From NCBI GenBank assembly GCA_003599625.1, contig QZIU01000022.1, forward strand, positions 1-37,013: DNA of 37,013 bases, written 5' to 3'. Under the pieces are notes generated by a model. The model made no database searches. It saw nothing but the letters and a program-made list of their open reading frames with translations, and was not told the origin of the DNA. A program made the position numbers and the translations under genes. Below, piece after piece: positions 399 to 37,013 of the stretch (positions are counted from its first letter, which is position 1; every line of letters starts with the position of its first letter). The DNA comes from Candidatus Parcubacteria bacterium. GTDB taxonomy: Bacteria > Patescibacteriota > Minisyncoccia > UBA9983.

Positions 399-2162
399 GT
401 GGAAAAAGTCATCAAGATTCTAAAAAAAAGAATTGCGCTTCCGAGTCTGGAAGAAGTCGTTTTCGTCCTCCGGAAGATGCTGCTTTGGGAGAAACTCCTT
501 TTTCTTTTTTTGGCGGTGTCTTTTGCCGCGGCTTCCTTGTCCATAATCTGGAAGCTCAACAATAATCTTATGGTCGATGTCCCGGCCCGCAGCGGAAGTT
601 TGACGGAGGGGATCATCGGCACGCCGCGCTTCATCAATCCGGTTCTGGCCATATCGGACGCGGACAGAGACCTTATCGCGCTGACATACTCAGGCCTGCT
701 AAGGCCGGACAATGACGGAGAACTGATCAAGGATATGGCGGAAAATTACGAGATCTCCGCGGACGGCTTGACTTACACATTCACATTGAAAGAAAAACTA
801 TACTGGCCGGACGGCGAACCCATTACCGCCGACGATGTTGTTTTCACTATTCAGAGATTGAAAGACCCCGCCATGAAGAGTCCGAAAAGAGGAAGCTGGG
901 AAGGCGTTGAGGTGGAGAAAACGAGCGACAAGACAATCCGTTTCTCCCTAAAGAAACCATACGCCCCGTTTCTGGAAAACGCGACCATCGGCATAATCCC
1001 CAATCATGTTTGGAAAGACATCTCCGTCGAGCAAATGGCCTCCAGCGAGATGAACATCAAACCTATGGGCTCCGGTCCGTATAAGATTGCCAAGATCAAA
1101 AGAAATTCTCTTGGCATAATAGTTTCTTACGAACTGTCGGCGAACAATAATTTCGCTCTCGGGAAACCAAATTTAAAGAAAATTGTTTTAAAATTTTACC
1201 CATCGGAAAAAGAACTGCTGTCAGCCTATCAAAAAGGAGAAGTAGAAAGCATGAATGCCATAACCCCTCAAGTTTTGGAAAAAATAAAAACGGAAAACAG
1301 CGAAATCAAGTCCTTGAACCTGCCGAGAGTTTTCGGCGTTTTCTTCAACCAAAACAGCGCTCAAGTATTGGCCAGGAAGGAGGTTCGCCAAGCTCTGAAC
1401 ATGGCGGTTGATCGCGAGAAAATAATAGATCGAGTCTTTAAGGGTTACGGAAGCGGACTTGCTTACGCCCTTCCCCAAGGCACTTTTGGAGCAATCGCCC
1501 CCGACCTTGCGACCGGGGAGGAAAAAGCCCAGGTGGAAAAAGCCAAACACTTACTTGAAGAAAATGGCTGGAAAATGAATAATGAAGGAAAAGTTCTGGA
1601 GAAAAAAGCCGGGAAAGAGCTTTATAAACTGTCATTCTCCATTTCTACTTCCGATAGTCCGGAACTCAAGGAAACGGCTTACCTTCTTAAGGAAATGTGG
1701 GAGGAGATCGGCGCCAAGGTGGAAGTAAAGATATTCGAGATCGGCGACCTCAATCAGAGCGTAATCAGACCGAGAAAGTACGAAACGCTGCTCTTCGGGC
1801 AAATAGTCGGAAGAGATCCGGATCTTTTCGCCTTTTGGCATTCCTCCCAAAGAAACGACCCCGGACTCAATGTCGCCCTTTACGCGAATATCAAAGCCGA
1901 CCGGCTGTTGGAAGAAGCGCGCGCCACGCAGGATCCGGCGGAGCGGAGCAAACAGTATGAAGACTTCCAAAAAGAAGTGGCCGGCGACATTCCCGCGATC
2001 TTCCTGTTTTCCCCAAAATTCATTTACATTTTGCCCAAATCGTTAAAAGGAGACGATGACATGGAAAACGCGACGGTTCCCTCGGAAAGATTCGCTTCCA
2101 TTTATAAATGGCACAAGGAAACCGACAAAGTTTGGAAGATATTTGCGAAAGAGACAAATTAA
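399..2162 (+). CDS. ABC transporter substrate-binding protein, peptide/family 5 (SBP_bac_5)
   Basis: N-terminal TM; LTYSGLLRPDNDG..., ADDVVFTIQRLKDP, VRQALNMAVDREKI motifs. Confidence 0.88.
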   Translation: MEKVIKILKKRIALPSLEEVVFVLRKMLLWEKLLFLFLAVSFAAASLSIIWKLNNNLMVDVPARSGSLTEGIIGTPRFINPVLAISDADRDLIALTYSGLLRPDNDGELIKDMAENYEISADGLTYTFTLKEKLYWPDGEPITADDVVFTIQRLKDPAMKSPKRGSWEGVEVEKTSDKTIRFSLKKPYAPFLENATIGIIPNHVWKDISVEQMASSEMNIKPMGSGPYKIAKIKRNSLGIIVSYELSANNNFALGKPNLKKIVLKFYPSEKELLSAYQKGEVESMNAITPQVLEKIKTENSEIKSLNLPRVFGVFFNQNSAQVLARKEVRQALNMAVDREKIIDRVFKGYGSGLAYALPQGTFGAIAPDLATGEEKAQVEKAKHLLEENGWKMNNEGKVLEKKAGKELYKLSFSISTSDSPELKETAYLLKEMWEEIGAKVEVKIFEIGDLNQSVIRPRKYETLLFGQIVGRDPDLFAFWHSSQRNDPGLNVALYANIKADRLLEEARATQDPAERSKQYEDFQKEVAGDIPAIFLFSPKFIYILPKSLKGDDDMENATVPSERFASIYKWHKETDKVWKIFAKETN

Positions 2163-18073: not shown

Positions 18074-18472
18074 TTATAATTTCGTTTTTCCAGAAATAAA
18101 ATCAACTACGGTTTCTGCCGCTTTTATGGCTTCCTTTGTCTCATTTTTGGAATACAAAATCGGCGAACCTAAGGGATAACGGGTGTCTATGTAATATTTG
18201 TCTAAGCTCCGAATTTCGTCGATTAGTTTTGAAAAATCATTGTCGGAAGAAATACACAATTGCAATAATGCAGGCAGGCTGTGCATTTTAGGCGATTCTT
18301 TCTTCATGAATGCCAAATACCCTTTCAAATATTTCTCAGCGGCTTGCTGGCACAAAAAGCAAATCGTATCCGTGTATCCGTCATTATCAAGAAGAATGAC
18401 TGCATTTTTAATATCGTGATTTCCTTTCTCGAACCACTCCGATGATAAATTCCCGGAAGTTGTTTTGTTCAT
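18074..18472 (-). CDS. HEPN domain protein, partner of nucleotidyltransferase
   Basis: WFEKGNHDIKNAVILL, CFLCQQAAEKYLKGYLAF, overlaps upstream MNT gene by 4 bp. Confidence 0.85.
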   Translation of the reverse strand: MNKTTSGNLSSEWFEKGNHDIKNAVILLDNDGYTDTICFLCQQAAEKYLKGYLAFMKKESPKMHSLPALLQLCISSDNDFSKLIDEIRSLDKYYIDTRYPLGSPILYSKNETKEAIKAAETVVDFISGKTKL

Positions 18473-18813
18473 ATTAAAACTTTTCCTTTTTCAAAAATTT
18501 CTTTAATTAAACTGTCCCCCATTTCGAGTCTCTGCTTAATCTCCTTTGGTGTGTATATGACAAGATCAACAGCCCCTGGAAATTTTTCTTTATCCAGGAA
18601 ATAATCCCTTCTGTAGATCAAGTTATAAACATCGTCAATTCTTCTTTGCCTTGGCTTGGACGTATTTTTCACGATCAACAAATCTATGTCACTGTTTTTT
18701 TTGGGCTTTCCCCAGGCGTAAGAACCAAAAAGAATGACTTTTTGGGGTTTGTATGGTTTAAGGTCGTTTTTTATCTGTTTAATTTTTTTATCGATATTTG
18801 ATCTCATGGCCAT
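18469..18813 (-). CDS. MNT-type nucleotidyltransferase
   Basis: VILFGSYAWGKPKKNSDIDLLIV motif. Confidence 0.88.
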   Translation of the reverse strand: MAMRSNIDKKIKQIKNDLKPYKPQKVILFGSYAWGKPKKNSDIDLLIVKNTSKPRQRRIDDVYNLIYRRDYFLDKEKFPGAVDLVIYTPKEIKQRLEMGDSLIKEIFEKGKVLI

Positions 18814-28172: not shown

Positions 28173-29720
28173 TTATTTGTTTTTAAATCCGGTTAAAGCA
28201 ATCATATCCCCCTCCTCAAGCCCGGATAAAATTTCCGCGTAACCGTCGTCGCCCATCATTCCCAAAATGACGGGGACTTCCTCAACGGCGCTTCCTTCCG
28301 GCGAGATTAATTTCTGGGCAAAATATTTTCCGCCTCTCTGAACCAGCGCGTATATAGGCGCTGTCAAAACATCTTTTTTGGAATCGAAGACAATCTCCAG
28401 ATCAGCGGTCAAACCGCTTTTCAGCTTGTCGTATTTCTCACCCAAAGCGATTTTGACCTTGAAGTTGCTTATACCTTCGATGACAGTCTCGGCCGGATCA
28501 ATATAAACGATCTTGCCAGAAAACTTTTCTTCCGGAAAAGCGTCGAATTTTATGTCGACCTCGTTGCCGATTCCGATCTTGCCGATATTAAGTTCCGGCA
28601 CATAAGCTTCCACTTCCAGGCCGGAATCTCCGATTACTGAAACGATCAAGGCGTTGGCCGTCACGACCTGCCCTGTCTTTGCTTCCTGCTTGGTTAGCAC
28701 TCCGGAAACGGGCGATCTGATATAAGTTTTTTCCAGCTGAGCTTCGATACTGATTATCTGGGCTTCGTATTGCTTTACCCGGCTTTCCTGAACTTGTATG
28801 GCTTCTTTAGTATTGCCGGCCTTCTTAAGCCCCAATTCCTTTTGCGCCAACAAAAGATTCGATTCGGCTGTGTTTGCCTTTTCTTCCGCCGCTATGATAG
28901 CCGAGATCGCGGCATTTACATTGTCTCTGGCGGTGGAAATGTCTTTTTTGTAAGCATCTATGGAAGTTTGCGCCAAACCGGCGTTGGCAGCCAGCCCGTT
29001 TACCATTGCGGCCATATTATTGAGAAAGTTTTTTGCCGACTCGTTATTTTCCTTAACTTTGCCGATCAATCCCTTAACAGCATCAGCATTTATTTTACCG
29101 TTCAAAGCGCTCCAGTCTTTAAGGATGACTTCAATTTCTACTCTTTCTTCTTCCAACCGCTTTTCCATTTGAGAGTCGGGAATGGCAATATTGAGCTGGG
29201 GGTTGACAGTCTTCGGATTGCTTAACATCTGATCAACTTTGTTGTAAACCGCATCATCGGCTTTGGTGTAGGAATCTCCCGCCTTATCGGCGAAATTTTC
29301 TAAAGCGTCTTTAAGGGCGATTTGAGCCGCGTTTACCTGCGTCTCCGATATTTCTATGTCTTCCGGTTTTGTTCCCGATTTGAGATCGGCCAACCTCGCT
29401 TCCTCCGACTCCTTGCTGGCCTGAGCCTGGGCCAGATTTGCCAGAAGCTCTTTCTGGTCCAGCTGGGCTATCGTCTGTCCGGCGTAAACCTTATCGCCAG
29501 CCTCGGCAAAAACTCCGGAAACCTTTCCGGAAACTTGGAAACTCAGATCAACGCTTTTGGCCGGCTTGGTCTTGCCCGTTATTTCCACCTTTTGAATTAT
29601 ACCTCCTTTTTTTAGCGTGACTGCTTCTATTCTTTCCGGTTTCTTGATCAAAGAGTAACCATACCGGCTGGCGACCGCCACAACGGCAATTGCAATTATC
29701 GTTATAATTATTTTCTTCAT
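28173..29720 (-). CDS. HlyD/MacA-like efflux periplasmic adaptor
   Basis: Lipoyl/barrel-sandwich halves around long coiled coil; KAGDKVYAGQTIAQLDQ-like region, IRSPVSGVLTKQEAKTGQVV. Confidence 0.88.
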   Translation of the reverse strand: MKKIIITIIAIAVVAVASRYGYSLIKKPERIEAVTLKKGGIIQKVEITGKTKPAKSVDLSFQVSGKVSGVFAEAGDKVYAGQTIAQLDQKELLANLAQAQASKESEEARLADLKSGTKPEDIEISETQVNAAQIALKDALENFADKAGDSYTKADDAVYNKVDQMLSNPKTVNPQLNIAIPDSQMEKRLEEERVEIEVILKDWSALNGKINADAVKGLIGKVKENNESAKNFLNNMAAMVNGLAANAGLAQTSIDAYKKDISTARDNVNAAISAIIAAEEKANTAESNLLLAQKELGLKKAGNTKEAIQVQESRVKQYEAQIISIEAQLEKTYIRSPVSGVLTKQEAKTGQVVTANALIVSVIGDSGLEVEAYVPELNIGKIGIGNEVDIKFDAFPEEKFSGKIVYIDPAETVIEGISNFKVKIALGEKYDKLKSGLTADLEIVFDSKKDVLTAPIYALVQRGGKYFAQKLISPEGSAVEEVPVILGMMGDDGYAEILSGLEEGDMIALTGFKNK

Positions 29721-29725
29721 TGCTA

Positions 29726-30406
29726 TTATTGTTTATTTTTTTCGTCGGAAATTATTTCTCCGTCCGAAAGCCTTATAATTCTTTCCGCTAAAACGGCGTA
29801 TTCGCTTTCATGTGTCACCATCACGATGGTCTGCCCTTTTTTGTGCAAACCCAGAAAAATGTCTAGAACTATTTTGGAAGTCTCGGAATCCAGATTGGCC
29901 GTCGGCTCGTCGGCAAAAATTATTTTGGGATTATGACCGATGGCCCTGGCAATACTCACCCTCTGCTGCTCTCCTCCTGAAAGCTGACTCGGTTTGTTAT
30001 AAAGTTTATGCTCCAGGCCGACTTTTCGCAAAGATTCTTCGGAAATCATTCTGGCCTGCTTTTTCGGCGCTCCTTGCATCATAAGGGGCGCCATTACGTT
30101 TTCCACTGCGGTCAATTCCGGCAATAAAGCGTAATCCTGAAAGACATACCCCAACTCCATAAGCCGCAATTCCGTTCTCTCCCGATTGCCCATCTTAACG
30201 ATATCCTTCCCGTCTATATATACACTGCCATTCGTGGGAAAATCAAGAGCTCCCATTTGGTACAGCAATGTGCTTTTGCCTGATCCAGACTTGCCGGTAA
30301 TCGCCAAAAACTGGCCTTCGGCAACCTTAAAACTAACCCCTTTTAAAGCAATAAGTTCCGAATCTCCCGTCTTGAATTTTTTTACTAAATTTTCAACTAT
30401 AATCAT
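29726..30406 (-). CDS. ABC transporter ATP-binding protein (MacB/LolD-like)
   Basis: GKSGSGKSTLLYQMGALDFPTNG, LSGGEQQRVSIARAI, IFADEPTANLD. Confidence 0.93.
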   Translation of the reverse strand: MIIVENLVKKFKTGDSELIALKGVSFKVAEGQFLAITGKSGSGKSTLLYQMGALDFPTNGSVYIDGKDIVKMGNRERTELRLMELGYVFQDYALLPELTAVENVMAPLMMQGAPKKQARMISEESLRKVGLEHKLYNKPSQLSGGEQQRVSIARAIGHNPKIIFADEPTANLDSETSKIVLDIFLGLHKKGQTIVMVTHESEYAVLAERIIRLSDGEIISDEKNKQ

Positions 30407-30422
30407 ATTTTTTCTTTATCCG

Positions 30423-31703
30423 TTACCTGCCCAGTATGGCATCCAAAGTGTTTTGCCTTATAACGAGTTTGGCCGGGATATAGCCAGCTATAAGGCTGGC
30501 CGTCATAAGAAAAGCCGCGCGGATCAATGCCCCCTTCCAGGTTACCGCCAAGACACCATCGCTGAAAGGAAAATTAACAGGATGAGAAACAAAATAAGGA
30601 ACAAGCGCAAAAAATAGGATTGATAATCCGACCGCCGTTCCGATCCCCGCGTAAAAAAGCGATTGGAGGACATAAGAAAATTCTATGGCGAAAGAATTTA
30701 TGCCGATGCCTTTCATTATACCGATAAATTTTCGCCGGGTGATGGCATTGATGAAGATGACTATGAATATGGTAATGGAGGCTACCACCAGGCCGATGGA
30801 ACCGACAATATCTCCCAGGATGGTAAAAGTTCCTTTAATATCCTTTAAAAACTTCGGTTGTGATTCCTCCCATGTCTGCACCTTGCCCCACTTTCCGGCC
30901 CCGGCCGCCAGAAGGGCGCTCTGGGCCACAGCTGGATCCGCCCCGTCTTTCAGCTTCAAAATGATCTCGTTAACGCTGTTATCACTTCTGCCCGCCATGT
31001 CCCGCAAAGAAGACGAGATCATAAAAATGCGATTATCAACCTCCCCCACTTTGCTTCTGACAATTCCCTTGATTGTAAATTCTTTGGTTCTTCCCGCCAC
31101 CGAGACTCTAACTTTGTCGCCGACTCCCGTATTTTTAAGATTTTGCATACTTGGCGTGTCGATAGGAGTATATTTGAAAAATTTATCGGCGCCGACAAGA
31201 ATAAATTCGGTGTCATCCGAATCGAGATACTTTCCTTCAATAATTTTTCCGGCCAAACCGGTAACGGCATCCTCCACTTCGGGATCGATCCCCGCCACCA
31301 AACCTCCGGCTTCCTCCGACAGTTCACTGAGATCGGTTTTGTTCTTATAATTCGCCTCAATCACCCCGCTGGAAACAAAACGATAACTTACGGCCTCGGT
31401 CCAGGGTAAAGCCTTGACCATGGAGATGACCGCTGGGCTGTTTTCTATATAAGGTTTTTTACTGAGAGCCGAAATGATCACGTCTCCGGAATACAATTGC
31501 CGGTTACTTACGCTGGAACTCTCGATTATACCCGTCAAAATACCCCCGATGAATATAAGGTTGATGAAGGTCAAAGACATTACCATTATGATCAAAATGG
31601 TGGTCCAGATGTTCCCTCTAATTATCTGCCGTTTGGCCAGAAAAAAGCCGAGCCTGAGAGGAATGATGAGGGGCGGTTTATTTACTTTTTTGATAATAGT
31701 CAT
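30423..31703 (-). CDS. ABC transporter permease (FtsX-like)
   Basis: N-terminal TM, MacB_PCD-like domain, C-terminal TM triplet; start moved to MTIIKK. Confidence 0.88.
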   Translation of the reverse strand: MTIIKKVNKPPLIIPLRLGFFLAKRQIIRGNIWTTILIIMVMSLTFINLIFIGGILTGIIESSSVSNRQLYSGDVIISALSKKPYIENSPAVISMVKALPWTEAVSYRFVSSGVIEANYKNKTDLSELSEEAGGLVAGIDPEVEDAVTGLAGKIIEGKYLDSDDTEFILVGADKFFKYTPIDTPSMQNLKNTGVGDKVRVSVAGRTKEFTIKGIVRSKVGEVDNRIFMISSSLRDMAGRSDNSVNEIILKLKDGADPAVAQSALLAAGAGKWGKVQTWEESQPKFLKDIKGTFTILGDIVGSIGLVVASITIFIVIFINAITRRKFIGIMKGIGINSFAIEFSYVLQSLFYAGIGTAVGLSILFFALVPYFVSHPVNFPFSDGVLAVTWKGALIRAAFLMTASLIAGYIPAKLVIRQNTLDAILGR

Positions 31704-31842
31704 TTTTAATACTGCTCCCAAAAATAGATAAATAGTACATTGCCCATAAATTTTTGTCAAAAAATGCTCGAACTATGATATTTCTATTTTGCTTTGACAC
31801 AAAAAATTGCTTCCCGCCGGCAATCGGTTTAAAATCAAGAAA

Positions 31843-32514
31843 ATGAAGATACTCCTGATAGAAGACCAGGCGGATATCGCGGAATTCATTCTCGGGAAAC
31901 TGAAGGAGAGCGACTTTACCGTCGATTGGCGGGACAACGGCAACGACGGCCTTGAGACCGCCCAGGGCGCGCCGTATGATCTCATTATCCTGGACTACCA
32001 ACTTCCGGGAAAAAATGGCCGGGAAATTTGTCGCTCATTGAGGGCCTCGGGCAAAAATACGCCGATCCTTATACTATCGGCCAAAGCCGAAACTTGCGTC
32101 AAAATCGATCTGCTAAACCTTGGCGCCGACGATTATATCGCGAAACCATTTACCTGGGAAGAACTTCTGGCCAGAATTAATTCCATTCTTCGCCGACCGC
32201 GCGCGCTGAAGGAAGAAACCCTCAAGATCGACAACCTTGTCGTCCACACCAAAAATCATACGGTAAAACGAGGCCACAAAGACATAACGCTTACCAAAAA
32301 AGAGTTCGTGCTTCTGGAGTTTCTTCTAAAAAACGCCGGGAACACCCTTTCAAGGGCCATGATAATGGAGCATGTCTGGGATATGAATACGGATCCATTC
32401 TCCAACACGGTGGAAACGCATATTTTGAACCTGCGCCGGAAAATAGACTTTCGCGGCCAAAAAAAGCTTATTCACACCATTTCTGGCCGGGGCTATAAGA
32501 TTGATAAAAAATAA
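31843..32514 (+). CDS. OmpR-family response regulator
   Basis: Receiver KILLIEDQADIAEF...LIILDYQLPGKNG; C-terminal winged helix. Confidence 0.92.
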   Translation: MKILLIEDQADIAEFILGKLKESDFTVDWRDNGNDGLETAQGAPYDLIILDYQLPGKNGREICRSLRASGKNTPILILSAKAETCVKIDLLNLGADDYIAKPFTWEELLARINSILRRPRALKEETLKIDNLVVHTKNHTVKRGHKDITLTKKEFVLLEFLLKNAGNTLSRAMIMEHVWDMNTDPFSNTVETHILNLRRKIDFRGQKKLIHTISGRGYKIDKK

Positions 32515-32611: not shown

Positions 32612-32908
32612 ATGTACAACGAAAATGAAAACTATCATGCGCACACGCGCCAAAAAGCGGCGATGAAATTTTTCCAAGGCCTGATGTTCGGACTGGCCGC
32701 GGGAATGGTTGCGGGGAAAATGCTTTCCGGCAAGCTGGAAGAGTTGAAAGAAAAGATCAAAGAAAAGTCCTCAGACTTCAAGACCCGAGCCTCCGACCTG
32801 GCCAAAAGATATAAGGAAATGACGGAAGAAGAATACAAAGAGTTCATCAAAAAAGAATCGGAGAGGTACAGAAAAATGTCGAAAGGAGAGAAAGAGGAGC
32901 AGCCCTAA
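32612..32908 (+). CDS. YtxH-like small membrane protein
   Basis: FFQGLMFGLAAGMVAGKMLSGKLEELKEKIKEK. Confidence 0.6.
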   Translation: MYNENENYHAHTRQKAAMKFFQGLMFGLAAGMVAGKMLSGKLEELKEKIKEKSSDFKTRASDLAKRYKEMTEEEYKEFIKKESERYRKMSKGEKEEQP

Positions 32909-33291
32909 ATAACATCTCGATATTTGGGATAATTTGCTTTTATAATATTCTTCCACGCCGCTGTCTCATTTGATGTCGCGATATCAGCTTTTGAGTACAC
33001 CATGAGCACACAAACGACTGCTTCATTTTGATGAATGGCGACTATGCATCTGTTTCCCGAAGCGTGTCTGGACATTTCCGTCCCGGCTATTTTAAATTCG
33101 GTTTTGCAAATTTTAACATCCCCGGAAACGCTGATAGTCTCGGCAATACTTTTTTGAAACAACAAATCGACATAAGTAAACTCCAGGATCAAGCCGTTAA
33201 GTGTCCGCTCCCACGCTCCTTTATGTTTCTTTGAAAAATTTTTTATAAAATGTCTTTCTGAAAATGGCTCAAAGGATACGGCGTATTTCAT
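32905..33291 (-). CDS. Putative toxin of Panacea module (uncharacterised, possibly RelE-like)
   Basis: 128 aa, starts 2 bp after Panacea ORF; KYAVSFEPFSERHFIKNFSKKHKGAWERTLNGL. Confidence 0.6.
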   Translation of the reverse strand: MKYAVSFEPFSERHFIKNFSKKHKGAWERTLNGLILEFTYVDLLFQKSIAETISVSGDVKICKTEFKIAGTEMSRHASGNRCIVAIHQNEAVVCVLMVYSKADIATSNETAAWKNIIKANYPKYRDVI

Positions 33292-33293
33292 GG

Positions 33294-33971
33294 TTAGTAA
33301 ATTTCGTCCGGATTTTCCTGAGTAAAGATATCATAAGAAACAATATCGTTATCCTCGGCAAACATATACGGCATTTGCTTATGCGTAAAGGCCACTGTGT
33401 CCGCGGTTCGCCTGCCTTTCCACTTCTCGTTGATCTTCCCGATTAGTTTTGCCTCTTCCGCGGAGATGAGGGATGAGCTTGATTTTATCCCGCTCCTTGT
33501 TGCCGAGACAAGCATTGCTCCATTCTCGGTCTGCTCCATGGATATTTCTCCGGCATCAAACATCTCATCAATAAGACGAAAATAAGCGTCGGCAACGGGA
33601 CCGTATTGAATCTTTCTGTATTGCATGCCGCTCATACTCTCAAGATTTGAGTAATACCAGCCGAAGTCGGCAAAATATAGCAGCTTTGCCAGCTTGGTCT
33701 TCGGCATGTTTTTGTTAAGCCGCAGGAAAGCTAGAATCATCTGCTTGTATTTTTCATAATCAGGCGATTCTCCTTTTTCCAATTCTTGCAAGGAAACACC
33801 TAAGAAACTTGAAAGCTTTTCAAACTCCTTGAGTGTTATATCCCTTTTTCCTTGCTCAATGGCAATATACGAAGGCCGCGAAATTCCGATTTTTTCCGCC
33901 ACATCCGACTGAGAAATCCCCCTCTTTGTTCGCGCCGCTCTTATAACGGCTGCATATTTGTTTCTGCTCAT
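33294..33971 (-). CDS. HTH-Panacea (DUF4065) antitoxin
   Basis: N-terminal Xre HTH (KRGISQSDVAEKIGISRPSYIAIEQGKRDITL); C-terminal KLAKLLYFADFGWYYSNLESMSGMQYRKIQYGPVADAY. Confidence 0.88.
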   Translation of the reverse strand: MSRNKYAAVIRAARTKRGISQSDVAEKIGISRPSYIAIEQGKRDITLKEFEKLSSFLGVSLQELEKGESPDYEKYKQMILAFLRLNKNMPKTKLAKLLYFADFGWYYSNLESMSGMQYRKIQYGPVADAYFRLIDEMFDAGEISMEQTENGAMLVSATRSGIKSSSSLISAEEAKLIGKINEKWKGRRTADTVAFTHKQMPYMFAEDNDIVSYDIFTQENPDEIY

Positions 33972-35103: not shown

Positions 35104-35772
35104 ATGAGGATACTCGTGGTGGACGACGAAAAGAATGTCGCTGATTTTCTTAAGGAAAATCTGGAATATGAGTATTTTGTCGTTGATACGGCTTACGACG
35201 GGGCAAAGGGATCCTATCTTGCAAGGGTAAACGACTACGATCTGATCATTTTGGATTACATTCTTCCGTTGAAGAGCGGGAAGGATGTTTGCGAAGAAAT
35301 ACGAAAAGCCAAGAAGACCACCCCCATTCTTATGCTTAGCGTAAAGTCCGAGACCACTGACCGGGTTGAAATGCTTAATATCGGGGCAGATGACTTTCTC
35401 GCCAAACCGTTTTCCTTCGCGGAGCTTCTTGCCCGCATAAAGGCGATCCTCCGAAGGCCGAGACAGATCGAGGAAGACATATTGACCGTTGACAATCTTG
35501 TTTTGGACGCCAAAAAACACGCGGTAAAAAGAAAAGACAAGGAAATATACCTTACTAGAAAAGAATACAATCTTCTCGATTACATGATGAGGCACGCGGG
35601 AAGGGCGCTTTCGCGAGGGATGCTTCTGGAACATGTTTGGGAAAATGAAGCAGACCCCCTTTCCAACACAGTCGAATCGCACATCGCCAGCCTGAGGAAA
35701 AAGATAGACAGCGGCCGCAAGAAAAAGCTTATTCAGACGATCCCCGGCAAAGGATATAAAATACAGGCTTGA
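35104..35772 (+). CDS. OmpR-family response regulator
   Basis: RILVVDDEKNVADFLKENLE... IILDYILPLKSGKDV; winged-helix C-terminus. Confidence 0.93.
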   Translation: MRILVVDDEKNVADFLKENLEYEYFVVDTAYDGAKGSYLARVNDYDLIILDYILPLKSGKDVCEEIRKAKKTTPILMLSVKSETTDRVEMLNIGADDFLAKPFSFAELLARIKAILRRPRQIEEDILTVDNLVLDAKKHAVKRKDKEIYLTRKEYNLLDYMMRHAGRALSRGMLLEHVWENEADPLSNTVESHIASLRKKIDSGRKKKLIQTIPGKGYKIQA

Positions 35773-35886: not shown

Positions 35887-35994
35887 ATGAAGAAGCTTCT
35901 AAAGAAAGTTCTTACGGACAAGAAAACCCGAAATGTTGTCGCATTAAGCGCCTTCTTGGCCTCGGTCGTAACGATCGGCGATCCTTGGGCGTAA
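35887..35994 (+). CDS. 35-aa peptide ORF between response regulator and kinase (not in supplied ORF track)
   Basis: MKKLLKKVLTDKKTRNVVALSAFLASVVTIGDPWA*; followed 11 bp later by a terminator-like hairpin. Confidence 0.5.
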   Translation: MKKLLKKVLTDKKTRNVVALSAFLASVVTIGDPWA

Positions 35995-36005
35995 AAAGCA
36001 ACGCG

Positions 36006-36052
36006 CAAAAACACCTCCTGAATCCGCGGCAAAGGCGAAAGAGGTGTTTTTG
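36006..36052. terminator. Hairpin terminator after small peptide ORF
   Basis: CAAAAACACCTC ... GAGGTGTTTTTG, 12-bp perfect stem. Confidence 0.65.
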
Positions 36053-36061
36053 TTTAAAGAC

Positions 36062-36955
36062 ATGCATCAGAATGAAAACATAGCCCTGAAAAAAATCAGG
36101 GAAAAGGAAAACGAAAGAAAAAGAAAAATAACCTGTTTCATTTCTTCCGGATTTGCTTTTTTGTCTTTCCTTGCCTTCCTGAATGCCTTTTTTAATAAAA
36201 TTATGGAGAAATCGACTTATCAAGGTGTTTCTCCTGTTGTGGTATTTCTGGTTTTTATTTTCTTCGTTGCCATTTATTTTCTCTCGCGATATAAGAGCCA
36301 CACGGCAGCCGCCATTATTCTCATCTCTCTTATCTTTGCCGGCGCTTTTTACACTTCCTACAAATGGGGAGTCAGTGTTCCTCAAAGCTATTTGTTATTC
36401 GCGCTGATATTTATAATGTCTTGGGTGCTAGTTAGCGCCAAGTTTTCTATATTTGCTATTTTATCGGTGGTAGCGTCCGTTATAACATTAACCATCATGC
36501 AAACCAAAGGAATCTTGCCATTCGATAAAACTTGGACGGCAAAGCCTTCCACGCTATGGGACTCGATTTTCAGACTCGGCACACTTGGGGTCATAGCCGC
36601 CATCAGTTGGCTTTACAACCAAGAGATAACCAAATCCCTGAAACGCGCCTGGCAATCGGAGGCCGACCTTCAAAAAGAAAGAGATATGCTGGAGATAAAA
36701 GTGGAGGAAAGAACGGAAGAACTTAAAAATACGCAAATGGAAAAAGCGGTTCAGTTGTACAGGTTCGCGGAATTCGGCCGGATCGCTTCCGGTCTTTTTC
36801 ATGATCTGGTCAATCCATTGACGGCCGTCTCTCTCAATCTGGAAAGTTTAAAGAAAGATGAACTTAAAAAGAAGATCGATAAAGAAATTTGCCTTGAAAG
36901 AATCTCGGACGGCATGTCAAAGCAAAATAGAAATGTCATAGTTCGAGCAATTTAG
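36062..36955 (+). pseudogene. Membrane sensor histidine kinase, truncated after HisKA region
   Basis: Multiple TM segments, coiled coil, FGRIASGLFHDLVNPLTAVSLNLESL phosphoacceptor; no HATPase_c before stop at 36955. Confidence 0.65.
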
Positions 36956-37013
36956 AAATGTCATACTTGACTGATTTCTAATTTGATTTTTTAATAAATT
37001 CCGACCGTTTGAT

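Follow-up and report, generated by a model that had tools for sequence, protein, structure and literature searches.

What is encoded in the gap between the response regulator and the membrane kinase near the end of this stretch of DNA? The window, by which we mean the whole 37,013-nucleotide stretch analyzed, holds at this place a reading frame of 35 codons that is absent from the list of open reading frames. A sequence-only reading had pointed out this frame between the two genes; it is confirmed at 35887-35994 (+), encodes exactly MKKLLKKVLTDKKTRNVVALSAFLASVVTIGDPWA, and is a real gene. In relatives it belongs to a four-gene order of response regulator, peptide, kinase, and an enzyme resembling terpene cyclases and prenyl synthases, a signaling operon that is widespread in tiny uncultured bacteria and apparently undescribed. 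We consider it likely that the frame encodes a precursor from which a secreted peptide signal is made, and that regulator, peptide, kinase with six transmembrane (TM) segments, and prenylating enzyme form a system found throughout the Patescibacteria. The locus is composed as follows:

35104..35772 (+): OmpR/PhoB-type response regulator with receiver and winged helix (Pfam Response_reg 1.3e-26, Trans_reg_C 2.2e-25)
35887..35994 (+): probable precursor peptide of 35 residues, with a leader (residues 1 to ~28) and a core ending Pro33-Trp34-Ala35
36005..36053 (+): hairpin with a U-rich 3' arm in the peptide/kinase gap, assigned from folding energy and from recurrent structure in relatives
36062..36914 (+): 5' part of a sensor histidine kinase, with a six-TM-type sensor, linker, and H-box His247 (36800-36802), without ATPase domain
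36915..37013 (no strand assigned): insertion sequence end (TGTCAAAGCAAAATAGAAATGTCATA...), where both kinase and contig stop

With the peptide as query, 142 relatives were searched first and yielded a single true relative (L002, 62% identical), which lies between regulator and kinase as in the window, in a genome from another family of the class; a second match (L003) was rejected as a chance match within the frame of a 553-codon membrane protein. The kinase sensor led to three further genomes, in each of which a small ORF that ends close to a Pro-Trp immediately precedes the kinase; two other kinase matches (L010, L011), of short range and with only the linker/H-box in common, were left unused. 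In the first four relatives, the gene after the kinase encodes an enzyme with Asp-rich motifs, which was invisible to the sequence-only reading because the window contig ends inside the kinase at the insertion sequence end. An alignment of this enzyme, used as bait in a wider search over ~85,000 species genomes, retrieved 62 loci, all from unnamed bacterial bins or named Patescibacteria lineages, among them Parcubacteria, Microgenomates, Saccharibacteria, Nomurabacteria, Doudnabacteria, and Berkelbacteria. The system is sporadic, since the enzyme occurs in ~5% of a 380-genome sample of the phylum and the kinase is missing from one genome of the window's own genus that is estimated to be complete. 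The enzyme was absent from the phage records searched, a plasmid search gave one match (Nostoc) that covers the cyclase half only, and two IMG/VR contigs carry relatives, one of them together with kinase and peptide.

Conservation, integrity of the frame, and selection over the 35 codons had been proposed as the yardsticks for the peptide, and on all three it behaves as a gene. A relative of it precedes the kinase in 55/55 of the related Patescibacteria loci whose DNA extends further upstream than the kinase, usually directly after the response regulator, which is of OmpR type in most related loci. As a control for chance, we built a profile from five seed peptides and scored ~378 small ORFs per locus: the pre-kinase ORF was the top match in 50 of 51 independent loci, with E < 1e-3 in 28 of the 51, and the best E-value of any ORF outside the operon was 2.1. 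A significant peptide match (E 3e-17 to 8e-5) was obtained in eight of nine kinase-bearing loci not seen before; in the ninth, a short pre-kinase ORF ends with GTPWRS. Differences between the peptide genes fall on the three codon positions as 791/577/1339 (2181 codons), an excess at the third position, and the window peptide differs from its nearest relative with a pN of 0.22 against a pS of 0.84. A further peptide relative, ending ETPWFD, lies at 521-637 (-) of locus L119, where no recognizable family kinase was seen in the surrounding 4.1 kb.

The anatomy of the peptide was derived from an alignment of 55 sequences of 32-40 residues, in which the window peptide took the place of that of L023, excluded for its ambiguous start codon. 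Leu9 and Trp34 occur in every sequence, Arg15 in 54/55, and Pro33, which forms the Pro-Trp pair, in 48/55; in the window, the Trp34 codon is 35986-35988. The leader is helix-like (type MxKLIKxIL) and is followed by a middle of varying hydropathy and a tail that mostly reads Phe/Gly-x-Pro-Trp, after which come 1-7 variable residues, Trp never being terminal. The residues flanking Pro-Trp are among the most variable aligned positions; in ComX, likewise, variability is greatest in the C-terminal signal part (PMC4008528). The Lys-rich amphipathic start and the distinctive GDPWA end highlighted in the sequence-only reading thus correspond to the conserved leader and the conserved Pro-Trp core. Its hydrophobic core stands for the window peptide and some relatives (mean hydropathy 1.9) and fails as a conserved trait, this stretch being hydrophilic or neutral in about half of the relatives (hydropathy as low as -1.2). 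This bears on its second proposal, a short transmembrane peptide acting directly on the kinase, which would suit the strongly hydrophobic members: because the hydrophobic middle is not conserved and leader and Pro-Trp are kept instead, a leader/core precursor fits better, and we regard the membrane peptide as highly improbable. Judged from the aligned residues, a conserved leader with a variably flanked Pro-Trp looks like the leader/core pattern of modified peptides, unlike that of a membrane anchor. Together with the conserved slot and the invariant Trp, this pattern lends good support to the original remark that the genomic position is pheromone-like. Among the 55 peptides, neither the Pfam leader families, NHLP-type included, nor the ComX family PF05952 gave a match. 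An AgrD-type cyclic peptide was rejected: the window peptide has no Cys, the residue (alternatively Ser) that closes the thiolactone in AgrBDCA peptides, and no family like the AgrB protease recurs among the neighbor families listed.

Which modification might the Trp carry? The enzyme behind the kinase points to a terpene. An AlphaFold model of the 638-residue enzyme of L016, built with 58 sequences, reached a pLDDT of 94, and its C-terminal half modeled alone reached 97. The N-terminal half is similar to class II terpene cyclases, most of all to drimenol synthase (6.7e-18 by sequence profile; 5e-10 by Foldseek), and retains an intact DxDD in 42/57 enzymes, the motif being lost mainly in short forms. 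The C-terminal half adopts the trans-isoprenyl-synthase fold, with matches to GGPP/polyprenyl synthases and to the Trp farnesyltransferase Ord1; despite this shared fold, PF00348 matched none of the 58 enzymes. Its two Asp-rich motifs are well preserved: in the FARM, the first Asp is found in 57/58 and the last in 58/58 enzymes, and the SARM QxxDDxxD is invariant in all 58, its Gln, three residues ahead of the Asp residues, having the spacing of Q216/D219 in Ord1. Such a Gln is common in ordinary prenyl synthases too and is therefore no proof of Trp specificity. A tie between a Gln of this kind and Trp recognition is drawn in PMC13290415. A PF00348 prenyl diphosphate synthase is encoded close by in nine loci, in six of them directly downstream and on the same strand, and is likely to supply the prenyl donor; the basic motif GGKRxRP of the IPP-site type, found in most of these co-encoded synthases, has no conserved counterpart in the enzyme. 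Linked prenyl synthases and the relationship of the N-terminal domain to class II cyclases would also suit a two-component system that controls the synthesis of a free terpenoid, with the small protein as an unmodified adaptor of kinase or enzyme. This reading is quite unlikely in our view, as it leaves unexplained both the invariant Trp amid variable residues near the end of the peptide and the enzymes that lack the cyclase part but occur with transferase part and peptide. Short enzymes that keep the transferase part, the DxDD cyclase part being lost or missing, are those of L040, L065, L066, L067, L069, L070, L072, and L076; in L040 the contig start cuts the gene.

The putative receptor is similarly constant. 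Of 52 family kinases, 40 show six TM-like segments, 51 have HATPase, 33 have HisKA, and none has HisKA_3. The window kinase aligns with the family profile over model positions 14-290 of 469 (2.4e-100); since the reading frame enters the insertion sequence end at 36915, the listed kinase is only the N-terminal part, so that the polytopic membrane kinase of the sequence-only reading holds as a membrane protein, in a frame that is interrupted and lacks the ATPase domain. Pairwise distances of peptides and kinase sensors correlate moderately (rho 0.34), no better than those of peptides and kinase core, and pherotype-style co-evolution is therefore not demonstrated. That no processing protease or exporter is adjacent had been noted as well: none that consistently adjoins the operon recurs across the loci, but a modifying enzyme does follow the kinase in relatives, beyond the end of the window contig. 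These observations also bear on the rather unlikely case that the product is a prenylated or terpenylated RiPP directed outward (as an antimicrobial, for manipulating a host, or for adhesion in an epibiotic life style), whose production is all that kinase and regulator control. Its enzyme/precursor logic would be identical to that of a signal, and terpene-modified Trp RiPPs are known from ChrPC and NctPC, as quoted in PMC13290415; against it, the kinase sensor, no less constant than the enzyme, directly follows the precursor in nearly all loci, and no immunity or dedicated transport gene recurs.

The hairpin reported earlier after the peptide is real, its stem measuring 13 bp rather than 12 (36005-36017 pairing with 36041-36053; -19.9 kcal/mol, z = -2.3). 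Among relatives with a peptide-kinase gap of 40-150 nt, folding beats shuffles at z < -2 in 15/22 loci. Since the listed GTG start of the kinase at 36044 overlaps the hairpin, ATG 36062 is the better start. The hairpin 36005-36053 is a probable attenuator or partial terminator, and the recurrent structure is compatible with a precursor made in excess over its receptor, whose level the hairpin would keep below that of the precursor.

The window itself appears to hold a broken copy. The 906-kb genome from which the window comes holds another, 100% identical copy of positions 36922-37012, which lies at the end of contig C1, and a 32-bp copy of the insertion sequence lies at 31761-31792 of the window; contigs C14, C16, and C33 of this genome start with a related insertion sequence end. 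The enzyme, a trans- or cis-prenyl synthase, and the kinase C-terminus were sought in the window genome and not found. With the kinase interrupted and the enzyme missing, the copy may be decaying or incompletely assembled; the missing enzyme and prenyl synthase would reflect one of three causes: decay, an assembly gap, or uptake of the donor from a host. An insertion sequence remnant at 31761-31799 adjoins a second OmpR-type regulator (31807-32514), which shares 51% identity with the pre-peptide regulator, has no kinase beside it, and is divergent from a MacAB-like exporter set (28173-31760, -). Elsewhere in the window, an HTH and SocA/Panacea-domain protein beside a 128-residue ORF (32905-33971, -) resembles a Panacea-type toxin-antitoxin pair, and adjacent ORFs at 18074-18813 (-) look, by eye from the translation, like a HEPN protein and an MNT nucleotidyltransferase. 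In related loci, divergent MarR-like and HlyD-like genes lie upstream of the regulator (four loci each, e.g. L044 and L053), with an MFS-like family further out; these genes are possibly a target of the system.

We infer a sequence of modification, cleavage, export, and sensing from these components. The amphipathic leader (M-x-x-L-x-x-x-I-L-x-x-x-x-x-R) would dock the precursor onto the enzyme, whose C-terminal trans-isoprenyl-synthase-like domain would place a prenyl group on the invariant Trp; in most genomes, the N-terminal class II cyclase domain would cyclize the terpene before or after transfer. Proteases would then remove the leader, and the lipidated core, a short peptide, would exit the cell, where the neighboring six-TM kinase would sense it and phosphorylate the OmpR-type regulator. 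The peptide is thus probably decorated with a terpene at the Trp near its end and sensed by the membrane kinase, much like ComX of Bacillus. More tentatively, it may represent a new class of pheromone, defined by a Trp with a polycyclic (drimane- or labdane-like) terpene, a single fusion enzyme that both cyclizes and transfers, and a receptor kinase outside the ComP family; this is plausible, yet short of what we would call probable. If the proposal is true, candidate phyla radiation bacteria, which are mostly uncultured and host-attached, possess a dedicated lipidated-peptide signaling system, and dozens of precursor-enzyme-receptor sets are at hand for in vitro work; it would also suggest that Trp-prenyl signaling arose or spread outside the Firmicutes and hint at terpene cyclases that act on peptides. 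The locus also illustrates that a small gene of importance can escape annotation.

How does the operon compare with known systems? In two characterized systems, an enzyme of the isoprenyl-synthase fold, ComQ or PalQ, prenylates a Trp that lies close to or at the end of a small precursor, and the precursor gene has a kinase gene as its neighbor (PMC4008528, PMC10853753). The ComQXPA census of 2014 contained no locus outside the Firmicutes (PMC4008528), a genome survey of quorum sensing in the candidate phyla radiation does not mention ComX or ComQ (PMC7567580), and we found no report of either in Patescibacteria in the open-licence literature. With ComQXPA, the operon shares a small precursor with a conserved Trp near its C-terminus, a polytopic kinase, a regulator, and an isoprenyl-synthase-fold enzyme, encoded by adjacent genes on one strand; the Trp, expected within 5-10 residues of the C-terminus, lies 1-7 residues from it in 55/55 peptides. 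The components differ in family: ComP has HisKA_3 (PF07730) and 8-10 TM segments, whereas the Patescibacteria kinase has HisKA and ~6; ComA is of LuxR/NarL type (GerE, PF00196), the window regulator of OmpR type (Trans_reg_C); ComX belongs to PF05952 and has 52-73 residues, against 32-40 in the peptides aligned here; and ComQ belongs to PF00348, whereas the Patescibacteria enzyme is larger, without PF00348 match, and usually fused to a class II cyclase. The gene order, regulator-peptide-kinase-enzyme, is also its own. As regulator and kinase come from families other than ComA and ComP, the operon is an analogue of ComQXPA and not a member.

The PalQ-PalX-PalP system is similar in its kinase, its precursor with an end Trp, its trans-IDS-like enzyme annotated as terpene synthase, and a leader that aids enzyme binding (PMC10853753). 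PalX, however, has a leader of the nitrile-hydratase type, and its Trp is strictly terminal, in contrast to the ~28-residue leader and the trailing residues found here, and no cyclase domain is described for PalQ (PMC10853753). ChrPC and NctPC, compared by description only, unite transferase and terpene cyclase in one protein acting on a RiPP Trp, the transferase of ChrPC being trans-IDS-like; the description consulted contains no two-component association (PMC13290415). Drimenol/drimenyl diphosphate synthases (PDB 9mhs, 9m7d-f, 7xq4) share the class II cyclase fold of the N-terminal half and a DxDD-type motif, but in the matched drimenol synthases a haloacid-dehalogenase-type domain takes the place of the isoprenyl-synthase-like one, and their description includes no peptide partner. 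The enzyme thus has the fold and DxDD of class II terpene cyclases in one half and, in the other, the isoprenoid-synthase fold, FARM/SARM, and preceding Gln of trans-IDS-like Trp prenyltransferases. Because the operon combines features of ComQ/PalQ with those of ChrPC/NctPC, and its regulator, kinase, and precursor belong to other families, the best-supported reading of its product is a Trp-prenylated, often terpene-cyclized peptide signal, made and sensed by an analogue of ComQXPA.
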